Below, one piece after another: positions 5,658 to 18,280 of a stretch of DNA of 27,421 nucleotides. The notes under the pieces are model-generated. The model was not told where the DNA came from and did not search any database. It saw only the letters and a program-made list of their open reading frames with translations. The position numbers were made by a program, and so were the translations under genes. The stretch lies in the IMG/VR virus record IMGVR_UViG_3300018084_000011, positions 1 through 27,421 of that record; one strand, given 5' to 3'. This stretch comes from a virus. The first letter of the stretch is position 1. Every line of letters begins with the position of its first letter.

Positions 5658-6044
5658 GTGTCCTATTCCGACAAGGTGCTCGACCATTTCAATAATCCTC
5701 GTAACATAGGAAGTATGCCTAAGGGTGACATAGACGTAGGTACTGGTATGGTTGGTGCTCCTGAGTGTGGTGACGTGATGAAACTACAAATTCGCGTGAT
5801 TGATGATGTCATTCAAGATGCCAAGTTCAAAACCTTTGGTTGTGGTTCTGCAATTGCCTCTAGCAGCATGGCGACTGAATGGCTCAAAGGTAGGACACTT
5901 GAGGAAGCAGGGAAGATCAAGAACACAGATATTGTGAGGGAACTCAATTTACCACCAGTGAAAATTCACTGTTCGGTTCTTGCAGAAGATGCAATCAAGG
6001 CTGCTCTTGCAGATTACAAAAAGAAACAGGAGACTAGATCATGA
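5658..6044 (+). CDS. iscU: IscU-like Fe-S cluster assembly scaffold protein
   Basis: A 128-residue protein, full length for IscU (about 128). IscU builds [2Fe-2S] clusters on sulfur from the IscS cysteine desulfurase and passes them to carriers with HscA/HscB help. All key residues are present: Cys37 and Asp39 (GAPECGDVMKLQI), Cys62 (FGCGSAIASSS), His104-Cys105 (KIHCSVLAEDA) and the HscA-recognition LPPVK at 98-102. The match to the proteobacterial type is high from memory. It starts at a GTG (5658) with TAGGAGA upstream, and its stop overlaps the IscA-like ATG (ATGA). There is no iscS, hscA or ferredoxin nearby, so it presumably works with host IscS. Placement between gp13 and gp14 indicates a host-derived gene fixed in a phage late operon. 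Confidence 0.93.
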   Translation: MSYSDKVLDHFNNPRNIGSMPKGDIDVGTGMVGAPECGDVMKLQIRVIDDVIQDAKFKTFGCGSAIASSSMATEWLKGRTLEEAGKIKNTDIVRELNLPPVKIHCSVLAEDAIKAALADYKKKQETRS

Positions 6045-6358
6045 TCACCATCACAGAAAAAGCATCGAACAAAATCAAAGAATTGCTTGGAGAGGACCCA
6101 GAAGCCAAGGGGCTCCGAGTGTATGTTCGTGGTGGTGGGTGCCATGGGTTTGAATATGGGATGCTCCTAGAAATTAACGTGACTGAGGATGACAACACCT
6201 TTGAACAGAATGGTGTCTCGGTGATCGTGGACCCACAGAGCCTTCCGTTGCTTGCTGGTTCTGAAGTGGACTACTCTGACAGCCTCATGGGTGCTGGGTT
6301 CCAGATCAAGAATCCTACGGCAAAAAGTACCTGCGGGTGCGGGTCAAGTTTCTCGTGA
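6041..6358 (+). CDS. A-type Fe-S carrier protein (IscA/ErpA/SufA family)
   Basis: A 105-residue protein of the HesB/IscA family (usual length 105-115). The three cluster ligands are in place: Cys34 in GGGCHGFEYGM, and Cys98 and Cys100 in STCGCGSSFS at the C-terminus. The segment VDYSDSLMGAGFQIKNP also fits the family (usual form: DY...L.G.GF...NPN). Such carriers receive clusters from IscU and deliver them to apo-enzymes. I cannot separate IscA, ErpA and SufA by eye, so no symbol is given. The ATG overlaps the iscU stop by four bases, and its own TGA overlaps a GTG start of the next gene, so three genes are likely translationally coupled. Confidence 0.9.
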   Translation: MITITEKASNKIKELLGEDPEAKGLRVYVRGGGCHGFEYGMLLEINVTEDDNTFEQNGVSVIVDPQSLPLLAGSEVDYSDSLMGAGFQIKNPTAKSTCGCGSSFS

Positions 6359-13416: not shown

Positions 13417-13429
13417 CAATACTATGAGT

Positions 13430-13434
13430 GGAGG
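13430..13434 (+). promoter_or_regulatory. Ribosome-binding site setting a TTG start for the portal gene
   Basis: GGAGG at 13430-13434 stands five bases before a TTG codon (13440). The only longer in-frame start, GTG at 13428, would place this site inside the coding region and has no ribosome site of its own. From the TTG the protein begins MAFRLFGFSLGK, like other portal proteins of the family. Confidence 0.7.
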
Positions 13435-13439
13435 TTATT

Positions 13440-15161
13440 TTGGCTTTTCGTCTGTTTGGATTCTCTCTAGGAAAAACCCCCGAAATCACCCATATCGAAG
13501 ATCCCGCCAAGCAAAACTTGGTGATACCACAGTCACAAATTGACGATGGTGCGGTCACTATTACTCAAGGCGGCTATACAGGAACATACGTAGACCTTGA
13601 AGGTTCCGTTCGTAACGAATTGGAACTGATCACACGTTATCGTGAAATGTCTCTGCACCCAGAGTGCTCTGAGGCCATCGAGGAAATCATCACTGAGGCT
13701 GTCACAGCCGATGAGGATGGTGAGGTGGTTGGATTGAACCTTGACAAACTCATGGTTCCCGCGAGCATCAAAAAGAAAATCACCGACGCTTTCGATAAAA
13801 TCAAGTCCATGCTCTCGTTCCAGGACCTTGGTGAGGACCTGTTCAAGCGTTGGTATGTCGATGGGCGACTGTATTTTCAGGTCGTCGTGGATACCACGAA
13901 ACCCAAAGAGGGTATCCAAGAACTTCGCTACATCGATCCTCGCAAAATTCGCAAAGTGCGAGAAATTTTGAAGGACCGCGACCCACGTAGCGGTATCGAA
14001 ATTATCAGAGCGACCAGTGAATACTACGTCTACAACGAGAACGGTCTCACTGCACAAGCCTATACCGCCTCTGTGAACCAGGGTACCCGTATTGCTCCAG
14101 ACTCTATCGTATTCGTGCCTTCTGGGCTCCTGGATGCCAAGTCGGTGATGGTCATTGGGTACCTCCACAAGGCCATCAAGTCTCTGAACCAACTCCGCAT
14201 GATCGAAGATGCAGTGGTCATTTATAGGTTGTCCCGCGCACCCGAGCGCCGCATATTCTACATCGACGTCGGCAACCTACCCAAAGCCAAAGCAGAGCAG
14301 TACCTCAAGCAAATCATGACCCAGTATCGCAACAAGCTGGTCTATGATGCTTCGACTGGTGAACTCCGTGATGAACGCAAACACCTCTCGATGCTGGAGG
14401 ATTTTTGGCTCCCTCGTCGTGAAGGTTCCAAGGGTACAGAAATCACCACGCTACCTGGTGGCGAGAACCTGGGCAAGATGGAGGACGTCGAGTATTTTCA
14501 AAAGAAACTCTACAAGTCTCTCAATGTGCCTATCGGACGCCTCGATTCTCAATCTGGTGGTACCGGTGGCCTCCAAGGCCTTGGTCGTGTCGCTGAACTT
14601 ACCCGCGATGAGGTCAAATTTCACAAGTTTATTCTCAGACTTCGCAACAAATTCTCACGTATATTCGATGAAGCCTTGGCTCGCCACCTGGTGTTGACTG
14701 GAGTGTGTTCGCAAGAGGAATGGGTTGAGTTTCGAGAACATGTCACCTATGAGTATAAAAATGATAACAACTTCACCGAACTCCGTGACTCAGAATTGCT
14801 TCGTGAGCGTGTTGCAACCCTGCTGCAGGTTCAACCATTTATTGGCACCTACTATTCGAATACCTGGGTCAAACGACATATCCTGATGTTCGATGACAAA
14901 GAAATCGAAGAAATGATGGATGAGATCGACGAGGAAACCAAACGAGGTGAATTGCCATTAGCGATACCTGGTCAAGAAGGTCAACCTGGACAAGGTGGGC
15001 AGCCGGGACAACCAGGAGGAGGCGGAGCACCTGGTGGCGCCGCTGGAGCCCCTGCACCAGAACCCGTCAACAACACCATTGACACGAGTGAGGAACCCAC
15101 AGAATCCTTGACGCCGGGCTTAGATAAAGCAGTGGACCGGGCGTTCCGAAAGCATAAATAG
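13440..15161 (+). CDS. gp20: Portal vertex protein, gp20-like
   Basis: A 573-residue portal subunit (T4 gp20: 524), the dodecamer through which DNA enters and leaves the head. Family segments are LITRYREMSLHPECSEAIEE, DLGEDLFKRWYVDGRLYFQV, LRYIDPRKIRKVRE, LKSLNQLRMIEDA-like KSLNQLRMIEDAVVIYRLSR, APERRIFYIDVGNLPKAKAE, LEDFWLPRREGSKGTEITTL, and the long helix ending EVKFHKFILRLRNKFSRIFD. The last 75 residues are a Gly/Pro/Gln-rich low-complexity tail (residues 512-540), then an acidic stretch and a basic end RAFRKHK; this extension is longer than in T4. The start codon is a TTG chosen from GGAGG spacing. A late promoter overlaps its stop codon. Confidence 0.94.
   Translation: MAFRLFGFSLGKTPEITHIEDPAKQNLVIPQSQIDDGAVTITQGGYTGTYVDLEGSVRNELELITRYREMSLHPECSEAIEEIITEAVTADEDGEVVGLNLDKLMVPASIKKKITDAFDKIKSMLSFQDLGEDLFKRWYVDGRLYFQVVVDTTKPKEGIQELRYIDPRKIRKVREILKDRDPRSGIEIIRATSEYYVYNENGLTAQAYTASVNQGTRIAPDSIVFVPSGLLDAKSVMVIGYLHKAIKSLNQLRMIEDAVVIYRLSRAPERRIFYIDVGNLPKAKAEQYLKQIMTQYRNKLVYDASTGELRDERKHLSMLEDFWLPRREGSKGTEITTLPGGENLGKMEDVEYFQKKLYKSLNVPIGRLDSQSGGTGGLQGLGRVAELTRDEVKFHKFILRLRNKFSRIFDEALARHLVLTGVCSQEEWVEFREHVTYEYKNDNNFTELRDSELLRERVATLLQVQPFIGTYYSNTWVKRHILMFDDKEIEEMMDEIDEETKRGELPLAIPGQEGQPGQGGQPGQPGGGGAPGGAAGAPAPEPVNNTIDTSEEPTESLTPGLDKAVDRAFRKHK
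15153..15160 (+). promoter_or_regulatory. Phage late promoter (CATAAATA) before the prohead core gene
   Basis: CATAAATAG overlaps the stop codon of the portal gene. Predicted start about 15166, a leader of about 28 bases with a GGAG ribosome site, then the ATG at 15194. Confidence 0.7.
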
Positions 15162-15183: not shown

Positions 15184-15459
15184 GGAGCACAACATGAACG
15201 AAGAACATATCGGTGAACCTGGCAGTTTGCATCACGTTCTCTCATCATATGGATATGAACGTCTCGGAGACCCGGGTAAAGGTTGGTATCAGTATTCCAA
15301 AGGACGACATAGTGTACTGGCCACTAATTCCAACAAAGGGCTTGAATGGTCACACAACAATTATGCTAAGAAAAATTCAAAGGCCACCAAGGGCACCGGT
15401 ACCGAAAGTCTCCACAAACATTTGTCAAGTTTACACGAGGAGCACAACATGAACGAAGA
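15184..15459 (+). repeat. Duplicated ribosome-site-plus-start element (two 21-bp direct copies)
   Basis: Identical 21-base copies at 15184-15204 and 15439-15459 each contain GGAGCACAAC followed by ATG and the codons for Asn-Glu-Glu/Asp. The first is the true gene start. The second lies 255 bases downstream in the same frame, so the core gene contains a complete internal ribosome-binding site and start. Confidence 0.85.
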
Positions 15460-15853
15460 TTTATCACCCATTGCGGACGCTATTACTCTTGTGGCTAATG
15501 GTCAGGCCGGAGAGGCCACTGGGTTAGTCCATGACCTTCTGGGTGCCCGAGTCTTGGATGCCCTGCAGAGTCATAAACAAGAAATTGCTCAGTCGCTTTT
15601 TGCTCCTAGTGCTGATGCCTTGGCAGAAGAATCCGAACAGTTGGATGAAATTTCTCTCAAAACAAAATTCAGTGCTTACAAGGCAGCCGCTGAAGCTGAG
15701 GATTCTGGACAACCCAAAGAGCGCGAGAGGAGTAAGTCTCTTACGGCGCGCATCGAAAAGGATGTCGAAAAGAAACACGGGGCTAAGATGGTTGGGAACC
15801 TTGAACGAGCGGCTTCAGTTCAACATTATGGCCGTGCAGCCCTGAAGAAATAA
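15194..15853 (+). CDS. Prohead core protein (gp67/gp68-type) with an extra N-terminal domain
   Basis: A 219-residue, two-part protein. Residues 1-85 form a basic, His/Tyr/Trp-containing module (HHVLSSYGYERLGDPGKGWY, GLEWSHNNYAKK, ESLHKHLSSLHEE). Residues 86-219 are of the prohead core type: PIADAITLVANGQAGEA, GARVLDALQSHKQEIAQSLF, SEQLDEISLKTKFSAYKAAA and a basic end. Such proteins fill the assembling head together with gp22 and are degraded or trimmed by gp21. An exact copy of the ribosome site and start lies at 15439-15459, so a 134-residue form from the ATG at 15449 may also be made. It follows its own late promoter, four bases before the next gene. The core assignment rests on position and the IAQSLF/QLDEIS pattern. 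Confidence 0.72.
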   Translation: MNEEHIGEPGSLHHVLSSYGYERLGDPGKGWYQYSKGRHSVLATNSNKGLEWSHNNYAKKNSKATKGTGTESLHKHLSSLHEEHNMNEDLSPIADAITLVANGQAGEATGLVHDLLGARVLDALQSHKQEIAQSLFAPSADALAEESEQLDEISLKTKFSAYKAAAEAEDSGQPKERERSKSLTARIEKDVEKKHGAKMVGNLERAASVQHYGRAALKK

Positions 15854-15856
15854 CCC

Positions 15857-16885
15857 ATGAAAGAATTCACCGAATTCCGAACAGAATTGAATGAAGGTGT
15901 CGAGGACCTCGTCGAACATGTGACGATGCCACCGAACATTTTGATTCTCCGTAGGAGAACGGTACGTCAGTTTCCTGATGGTGTCTATGTCGCGCTGTAC
16001 TACAACGACAAACTGGGTCTCCAGTTCAGCATACCCTATGGGGCTGCGACAGAACCCATTGTGACACCGGTTGCGTTGAAGGAAACTGAAGAGTTAAAAG
16101 AAATCTCGATACCTGTTGCCAATCGTGCCTATCACGAAAGGCAGAAGCGTGGAACTGAAGCACTCAAAAAATCTGATTATAAAACCGCTAGCGGTCATTT
16201 CAAAAAAGCGATGAAAACTGTAGACTTGAGAGCCAAGAAATACGACATTGAGGATCGTGGTGGACTGGTGAAAGAATCCGAACATTTGACTGAAGTGGAA
16301 CAGGACACACCAGAAGAATTGAAACGACATGCTGAAATCGCAGCGTTATGGCAAAAGCGGAAAAAGAAGTTGGGTGAGAAGCAACCCACCGAAAAGAAAT
16401 TAGAAGAGGGGTTAGGTTTACCTGTACGTGGCTACATTTCACCAGAACGTAGGCGTCACCTTTGGATGCGAGAGTTTGAGAACCATGTGGTCAAAACACA
16501 CCCACATCTCGCTGGAAAAATTGATTGGAATACCGCAGCCCACTTGCATAATACAGGTCATAAACCTGAAGGTGCAGCCCATTGGTATACCGCGAGCAAG
16601 CCGTTGAAGGAAACCGTTAAGAAATTAACAGAAGATCATCCAGAGGAAGAGTCCGAACACGGCCTTGTTCAGCGTCTCCGTAATATTACAGATTTTCATG
16701 CGATTCACCACATCACTCATGCCGATGGCTCCAGGACACATGTAGATCCGACAACCGCACACGCGCTTTTGACAGTCCACGATAGCTTGCATCCCGATAA
16801 CCAGAAGAAGTTTGTTCAGCACCTGGAGCATTCGAAAGCAAAGTTTCACAAAATGTTGGATTTTACGTGGAAAAGTGTGAAATGA
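15857..16885 (+). CDS. Multidomain prohead-core-like protein
   Basis: A 342-residue charged protein of the portal-protease interval. Residues 1-70 include a beta segment (LILRRRTVRQFPDGVYVALY, GLQFSIPYG). Residues 75-135 are helical and basic (ELKEISIPVANRAYHERQKR). Residues 185-245 contain a compact WMREFENHVVKTHPH...LHNTGHKP stretch. Residues 270-342 (TTAHALLTVHDSLHPDNQKK, FHKMLDFTWKSV) resemble a short C-terminal module in head-assembly proteins of aquatic T4-like phages, from memory. Three sites fit the gp21 cleavage rule [LIV]-x-E|[GAS]: LNE|G near residue 12, VKE|S near 140 and LEE|G near 185. A core or internal head role is inferred; function is unproven. The ribosome site is weak, so translation may be coupled. 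Confidence 0.65.
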   Translation: MKEFTEFRTELNEGVEDLVEHVTMPPNILILRRRTVRQFPDGVYVALYYNDKLGLQFSIPYGAATEPIVTPVALKETEELKEISIPVANRAYHERQKRGTEALKKSDYKTASGHFKKAMKTVDLRAKKYDIEDRGGLVKESEHLTEVEQDTPEELKRHAEIAALWQKRKKKLGEKQPTEKKLEEGLGLPVRGYISPERRRHLWMREFENHVVKTHPHLAGKIDWNTAAHLHNTGHKPEGAAHWYTASKPLKETVKKLTEDHPEEESEHGLVQRLRNITDFHAIHHITHADGSRTHVDPTTAHALLTVHDSLHPDNQKKFVQHLEHSKAKFHKMLDFTWKSVK

Positions 16886-17208: not shown

Positions 17209-17592
17209 ATGGGATTAGAAATTATCAATAAATTTCGGGGACCTTCGATCATTCGCGTGACCAATGCACTGTCAGCGACCACGATCAATTTGTCACAACT
17301 GAGTGCCAATGTCAACACAGAGAATGTCATCTCCGCGGTGATCACATCGGCTAAATGGACCCTGCAACCCACAACAGGAAACTTTATTGTGAGTCGTGGA
17401 AACCCGGTGAGCAACTTGACCAACACGGTCTTGAACGCCTGGCAAACGGGTTACTGGCAACACGATGAAGGTGCGAGAGCCTTGGGTAACACCCCAACCG
17501 GAAATATCATCGTAACCCTGGTGACCGATGGTACTGGCATCTTTACTGTCTCGAAAGATTGTTCCTATAACGTCGATACCTCGGTCCTGTAA
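17209..17592 (+). CDS. Hypothetical beta-rich protein of the head gene cluster
   Basis: A 127-residue protein I do not recognise. It is rich in Thr, Asn, Val and Ile with alternating hydrophobic strands (IIRVTNALSATTINLSQL, NVISAVITSAKWTLQ, IIVTLVTDGTGIFTVSK), a single Cys near the C-terminus and no membrane segment. The ATG has AAGGGGAT upstream. The place between the basic core protein and the prohead protease, and the all-beta look, suggest a small capsid-associated or decoration protein, but that is positional guesswork. Confidence 0.6.
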   Translation: MGLEIINKFRGPSIIRVTNALSATTINLSQLSANVNTENVISAVITSAKWTLQPTTGNFIVSRGNPVSNLTNTVLNAWQTGYWQHDEGARALGNTPTGNIIVTLVTDGTGIFTVSKDCSYNVDTSVL

Positions 17593-17602
17593 GGGAGACC
17601 CA

Positions 17603-18280
17603 ATGAAGCTGATTAGAGAGTGCTTCGAAAACGTCAAGGTTCTCACGGAAGCCGATAAACTGTCAGGCAAAAAATCCTTCTACATCGAGGGGATTTTTAT
17701 TCAGACCGAGCGGCCCAACAAGAACCGTAGGCAGTATTGCTTTGAGTCGATGAACCGTGAGATCAAGCGGTACACCGACACCTACATCAAGGAAAACCGG
17801 GCGTTTGGTGAATTGGGGCACCCTGATACCCCAACGATCAACCTGGAACGAGTCTCGCACCTCATCAAGGAACTCAGGGCCGATGGAAAGGACTTCTATG
17901 GCAAGGCCAAGATCCTGACCACTCCCTATGGGAAAATTGTTGAATCCTTGCTGGAAGAGGGCGCCAAGATTGCGGTGAGTACCCGTGGCCTAGGGTCCCT
18001 CGTAGCTGGACCCAATGGTATCAACATGGTTCAGGACGATTTTCAGTTGGCCACAGCGGCCGACATTGTAGCGGACCCCTCAGCCCCCGATGCCTTCGTG
18101 GCCGGGATCATGGAGGGTCGTGAGTGGGTATTTGAGGCCGCCAAGGGTACCTGGGTGGAAAAACAGATCGAACAACTCTACGAGGCTCTCCCAAAATACA
18201 GCACCAAACAGTTACACGAGACGGCCGCCAAGCTCTTTACAGATTTCATGGACGGTATCACCAAGACGGGGCGAAAATAG
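17603..18280 (+). CDS. gp21: Prohead maturation protease, gp21-like
   Basis: A 225-residue serine protease (T4 gp21: 212) that cleaves head proteins during maturation. The catalytic pair is visible: His73 in GELGHPDTP and Ser126 in VSTRGLGSL. Other family segments are SFYIEGIFIQTERPNKNRR at the N-terminus and HLIKELRADGKDFYGKAKIL with TPYGKIVESLLEEGAKI. The start is the ATG at 17603, with AAGGGAG upstream; the frame is open further 5' but that part is inside the preceding gene. Likely cleavage sites are visible in gp22, gp23 and the core protein. Confidence 0.93.
   Translation: MKLIRECFENVKVLTEADKLSGKKSFYIEGIFIQTERPNKNRRQYCFESMNREIKRYTDTYIKENRAFGELGHPDTPTINLERVSHLIKELRADGKDFYGKAKILTTPYGKIVESLLEEGAKIAVSTRGLGSLVAGPNGINMVQDDFQLATAADIVADPSAPDAFVAGIMEGREWVFEAAKGTWVEKQIEQLYEALPKYSTKQLHETAAKLFTDFMDGITKTGRK

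Follow-up and report, generated by a model that had tools for sequence, protein, structure and literature searches.

Why does a head gene of a T4-like phage carry the same ribosome binding site and start codon twice, in one reading frame? We address this question for a locus in a 27,421-base virus record (here called the window, meaning the whole stretch of DNA analyzed). A sequence-only reading of the locus had proposed that an 85-residue N-terminal domain was grafted onto a prohead core gene at its start element and that the original start remained functional. Below, we compare the gene with its relatives and weigh other explanations of the repeat.

The start element occurs twice in one frame

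On the plus strand, which carries all features of the locus described here, GGAGCACAACATGAACGAAGA is found exactly at 15184 to 15204 and again at 15439 to 15459, with a start-to-start distance of 255 nt (85 codons) that keeps the copies in frame. Copy 1 comprises the Shine-Dalgarno (SD) sequence GGAG, the spacer CACAAC, the start codon ATG1 (15194), and the codons N-E-(E). Copy 2 is identical and contains ATG2 (15449), in frame with ATG1, but its SD is extended to GAGGAG (from 15437). Both starts belong to a single open frame whose last position is 15853, and the gene probably yields two products, predicted at 219 aa (15194 to 15853) and 134 aa (15449 to 15853). With this extension, the internal SD is the stronger (duplex energy of −8.1 kcal/mol, versus −5.6 kcal/mol at start 1), and the cost of local opening is low and similar at both sites (4.1 kcal/mol at start 1 and 5.3 kcal/mol at start 2). 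The window gene is thus a nested-start gene in the sense of having an internal in-frame ATG with its own SD.

The two elements might resemble each other by chance, or a chimeric assembly might have been joined at the 21-mer. The virus record is metagenomic, and a search of IMG/VR with the 21-mer returned, as its only other match, the start of one unrelated phage gene on a single contig (L088); the element is therefore also a generic good start signal, besides being a repeat. However, the two copies are the sole pair in the whole window that agree within three mismatches, and shuffled sequence yielded no match even when 3 mismatches were allowed. The frame also continues through the junction, and a likely homolog of the domain precedes the same core on separate contigs (L006 and L007, discussed below). 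We therefore consider chance or misassembly very improbable, and the exact in-frame repeat described by the sequence-only reading stands.

The region downstream of the second start resembles T4 gp67

The window virus is a marine T4-like phage. Its gene order is T4-like, with gp17-, gp18-, gp19-, and gp20-like genes (assigned by sequence and by their order) followed by the focal gene, a 342-aa ORF, gp21, the gp22 scaffold gene, and a gp23-like gene; Pfam matches were obtained for the gp21 protease (Peptidase_S77) and the gp22 scaffold (T4_CASP). The focal gene lies between the portal gene gp20 (13428 to 15161; a later ATG may be its true start) and the gene for the prohead protease gp21 (17528 to 18280; true start probably near 17603), which is predicted to cut the focal product. 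The 342-aa ORF and small ORFs intervene. The order in T4 is 20-67-68-21 (NC_000866), which places the focal gene in the position of gene 67.

A profile built from the marine versions of the protein matched the Straboviridae gp67 profile with a probability of 91 and a pairwise E value of 1.2e-6, and the near-clade profile alone reached a probability of 66 (E = 5.7e-5). Single-protein PHROG matches were weak, with phrog_1064 only at E = 0.045. By synteny and profile comparison, the focal protein from Met86 onward corresponds to a diverged T4 gp67 (PIP, a prohead core protein). Its core of about 66 residues (15449 to 15646) is conserved in relatives and opens the gene in those that lack an extension. 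T4 gp67 likewise lies between the portal gp20 and the protease gp21, and in the profile comparison about 50 residues of its core are homologous to the window protein. It differs in that it begins at the core and carries an acidic tail at its end, whereas the window gene has the 85-residue domain first, the internal start between domain and core, and another C-terminal module. In T4, gp67 is a core protein of about 340 copies that is degraded by gp21 (PMC9958956).

Both gp67 and gp68 have been stated to be missing from all cyanophage genomes (PMC2984593). Cyanophage S-RIM32 encodes a diverged gp67-like "hypothetical protein" (L084:3444-3614; phrog_2088) between gp20 and gp21, and 60 records match this phrog_2088-type protein, with the gp20-gp21 position checked in four. 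Contrary to the earlier statement, gp67 is thus indicated as present in cyanophages in a diverged form.

Other genes of these phages also merit description. Adjacent iron-sulfur cluster assembly genes lie among the tail genes of the window at 5658 to 6044 and 6041 to 6358 (Pfam NifU_N, E = 9e-51; Fe-S_biosyn, E = 6e-22). The 412-aa protein encoded at 188 to 1426 is built mostly from a unit of about 50 residues (KGFFSGG..DRTTYATE..VSGANLS.AR) repeated in tandem and has no Pfam match. A 160-aa ORF resembling HNH homing endonucleases lies between gp19 and gp20 in relative L001 (L001:1756-2238) and is not present in the window; it has no Pfam match at an E value of 0.01.

The N-terminal domain is absent from the nearest relatives

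Homology to relatives in IMG/VR begins at about residue 86 of the focal protein in most loci, in agreement with the earlier proposal that the core-type region starts at the second copy. In five relatives (L001, L002, L003, L008, and L011), the gene begins at the equivalent of Met86, with its own SD shortly after the portal stop. By portal protein comparison, L002 (96% identity) and L001 are nearest to the window, and both lack the 85-residue domain (15194 to 15448). The DNA of L001 is 83 to 87% identical to that of the window along gp18-gp23, but the aligned sequence is interrupted between the end of the portal gene and 15450 and a second time after 15649. Given this break and the missing domain, we conclude that, compared with the closest relatives, the 85 residues are an insertion bounded by the two start copies. 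The starts in L001 and L002 are spelled (e.g., AGGAGAAACACCATGCTGAATGAAGA in L002) unlike both window copies, which are themselves identical; the duplication, or a later homogenization of the copies, is therefore younger than the split, and the graft, or its copied start, appears to be recent. The branching order of the window, L001, and L002 is not fixed by the portal tree, so the domain may instead have been lost in both L001 and L002, but its gain is the simpler reading. Comparison with relatives lacking the domain, which the sequence-only reading had suggested as a check, thus supports its account of an N-terminal graft at the start element.

The repeats could instead mark a removable cassette. 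Recombination between the 21-bp direct repeats would delete exactly 255 bp and restore the unextended gene, so that populations would carry both forms and the repeat would serve as a switch, not as a second start. Exact direct repeats do flank the domain, their deletion would be in frame and scarless, and one relative (L010) has lost its upstream start through a small deletion. However, L001 and L002 do not have the start spelling that such a deletion would leave, and 21 bp is short for frequent recombination. A switch of this kind is improbable in our estimate.

Searches for the origin of the domain

A segment with 28% identity to the grafted domain lies inside the 339-aa leader that precedes the same core in L006 and L007. 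In an alignment of just these two sequences, G, W, and H positions are shared, and homology is likely. When the domain and its L006 counterpart were used together as the query against IMG/VR, only the L006 and L007 contigs matched, and the domain alone matched nothing in that database. The full-length protein and the L006 copy gave no useful match among annotated phages; the domain was found neither in the bacterial and archaeal genome collection nor elsewhere in 11 related phage records searched whole, one of 178 kb. From these searches, no donor emerged.

AlphaFold2 modeled the domain as a small alpha/beta fold with moderate confidence (pLDDT of 76), for which Foldseek returned no match at an E value of ≤0.001 among the PDB and viral models. 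A HicA/dsRBD-like fold, guessed from sequence, was dropped, as HicA was absent from the 50 best Foldseek matches listed (PDB and viral models). In a low-confidence model of the full-length protein (pTM of 0.29), the internal Met lies in a linker from the grafted domain to a helical core.

Internal start elements recur in other extended relatives

Eight distinct relatives with in-frame extensions were counted, including the window, with leaders of 34 to 339 aa. In six of these (the window, L006, L023, L024, L027, and L014), AGGAG lies 4 to 6 nt upstream of the core ATG and its duplex energy is roughly −8 kcal/mol or better, whereas the motif precedes only 4.2% of 544 internal ATGs at the same loci (binomial P = 1.5e-7 if the relatives are independent, which overstates the case because they may share history). 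AGGAG is read in each of the three possible codon phases, and the residues that it specifies vary accordingly (EEH, KKE, QGV, and KRR), which indicates that a nucleotide motif is kept rather than a residue pattern. The leaders themselves appear to be translated, as the form RxLAAxIRSK..K is conserved at the protein level in six sequences; leader and core regions are thus both coding. In L010, the leader frame contains no ATG, GTG, or TTG while the internal SD-ATG is kept, so the internal element must be the start there.

These observations bear on a further alternative, in which only the 219-aa form is made and the internal element is an undecayed fossil of a recent insertion. The identity of the two window copies points to recency, as this alternative expects. 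Moreover, the lineage L102 to L105 has kept the leader, its start, and the Met while losing the internal SD (−2.1 kcal/mol), and a test of synonymous codon choice at the SD was only mildly significant (combined P = 0.015), with rare AGG-AGA arginine codons in L027 contributing most. A fossil would not, however, be expected to persist across widely diverged leaders in differing codon phases or to carry a stronger SD than the upstream start, and it does not account for L010. We regard a purely fossil start as rather unlikely. The loss in L102 to L105, together with a weak internal SD in L025 (−4.7 kcal/mol), indicates that the nested start is common but not required. The proposal that the original start is functional has indirect support: most extended relatives keep the SD-ATG, and L010 has no other start available, but one lineage has lost it. 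The gene is best read as a gp67 gene whose N-terminal modules are exchangeable and whose nested start has been retained, most likely with products of 219 and 134 aa.

C-terminal modules and protease sites

Downstream of the sequence EESEQLDE, the C-terminal module (15647 to 15853) differs among the window, L001, and L002. The next ORF, a probable further core or internal protein, is 342 aa in the window (15857 to 16885) and 163 aa in L001 (L001:4385-4876); the window version carries about 180 residues, inserted close to an LKE site, that L001 lacks. The start of this ORF, MKEFTEFRTELNE, is similar to a capsid-targeting peptide of T4 and carries an LxE site. From the differences in the C-terminal module and the next ORF, it follows that the entire gp20-gp21 interval exchanges modules. 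The EESEQLDE cassette, which contains an LxE motif, occurs at window positions 15626, 16079, and 16271 and at many near-clade loci, where it heads interchangeable C-terminal modules of gp67-like and neighboring proteins; comparable modules are also present in large hypothetical proteins encoded by cyanophages S-SKS1 and P-TIM68. The sequence-only reading was for the most part correct, but the gp67-like nature of the core, the recurrence of an extension and internal start with other leaders, and the exchange of modules in the C-terminal part and next gene were all absent from it.

In the focal protein, (L/I)xE motifs occur at residues 8, 82, 145, and 152, all near module borders. Their number (4, versus 2.7 expected from shuffles) is not significantly enriched. 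The first of them ends the N-terminal MNEEHIGE, and such a motif is found within the first 17 residues of 27% of SD-led genes at the same loci. For a propeptide resembling a capsid-targeting sequence on the leaders, the signal is weak: 4 of 4 leaders, chosen after the fact, carry one, set against this 27% background. Cleavage by gp21 occurs after L/I-X-E (PMC9026906).

Discussion

The model that we favor, and that we judge moderately probable as a whole, runs as follows. An 85-residue domain would have been inserted in frame at the start element by recombination, producing two SD-ATG-NE copies. Upstream initiation would give a 219-aa protein carrying the extra domain, and the retained internal SD-ATG would give the 134-aa ancestral form, so that plain gp67 would still be supplied. 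Their shared gp67 part would bring both forms into the prohead core, and cleavage of both by gp21 at (L/I)xE sites would release the extra domain within the head. The repeat and its frame, the lack of the domain in the nearest relatives, and the internal SD kept by most extended relatives are observations, whereas use of both starts, joint assembly, cleavage, and any cargo role are inferred. Release of the domain by processing counts among the latter because the number of (L/I)xE motifs does not exceed that of shuffles. Service of the grafted domain as head cargo is one possibility.

Nested in-frame starts as such are already known, and we file the focal gene as gp67 with a new variant architecture. 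The classic case is lambda C/Nu3, in which translation of a scaffold protein begins in frame within a longer head gene; the N-terminal part there is a protease, and the proteins are unrelated to those of the window. T4 genes 21 and 17, as annotated in NC_000866, resemble the window gene in being head genes of the same cluster in which a downstream second start in the one frame gives an N-terminally shorter protein. They are, however, different genes; the upstream portion of the window gene is a seemingly recent insertion, and one of its start elements duplicates the other. In bacterial Rpn genes, a variable C-terminal part is reported to be translated on its own as well, from an internal start, but these are toxin-antitoxin genes unrelated to the window gene (PMC10327210). 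The T4 internal proteins IPI to IPIII likewise bring variable small domains into the prohead core, behind a short N-terminal peptide, 10 to 20 residues long, that ends in (L/I)xE and is cut by gp21; IPI is known to inhibit host nucleases. In the window, by contrast, the variable domain is fused ahead of gp67 itself, and MNEEHIGE is only a putative counterpart of the targeting peptide. In the literature searched, mostly outside subscription journals, we found no report of such a nested start for gp67.

More speculatively, gp67 of this clade may be a delivery chassis: swappable N- and C-terminal domains would be added at protease sites or at the start element, travel into the prohead as fusions with the core protein, and be released as head cargo through gp21 cleavage, with the nested start providing gp67 on its own. 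This broader idea is doubtful at present; if it is true, the ratio of the two start sites would set the cargo dose. The locus presents what appears to be a domain graft on a head-assembly gene with the old start signal kept, alongside close relatives that are unextended and another, L010, that has the internal start only. It thereby makes testable how phages may add domains to core proteins while retaining the original product.
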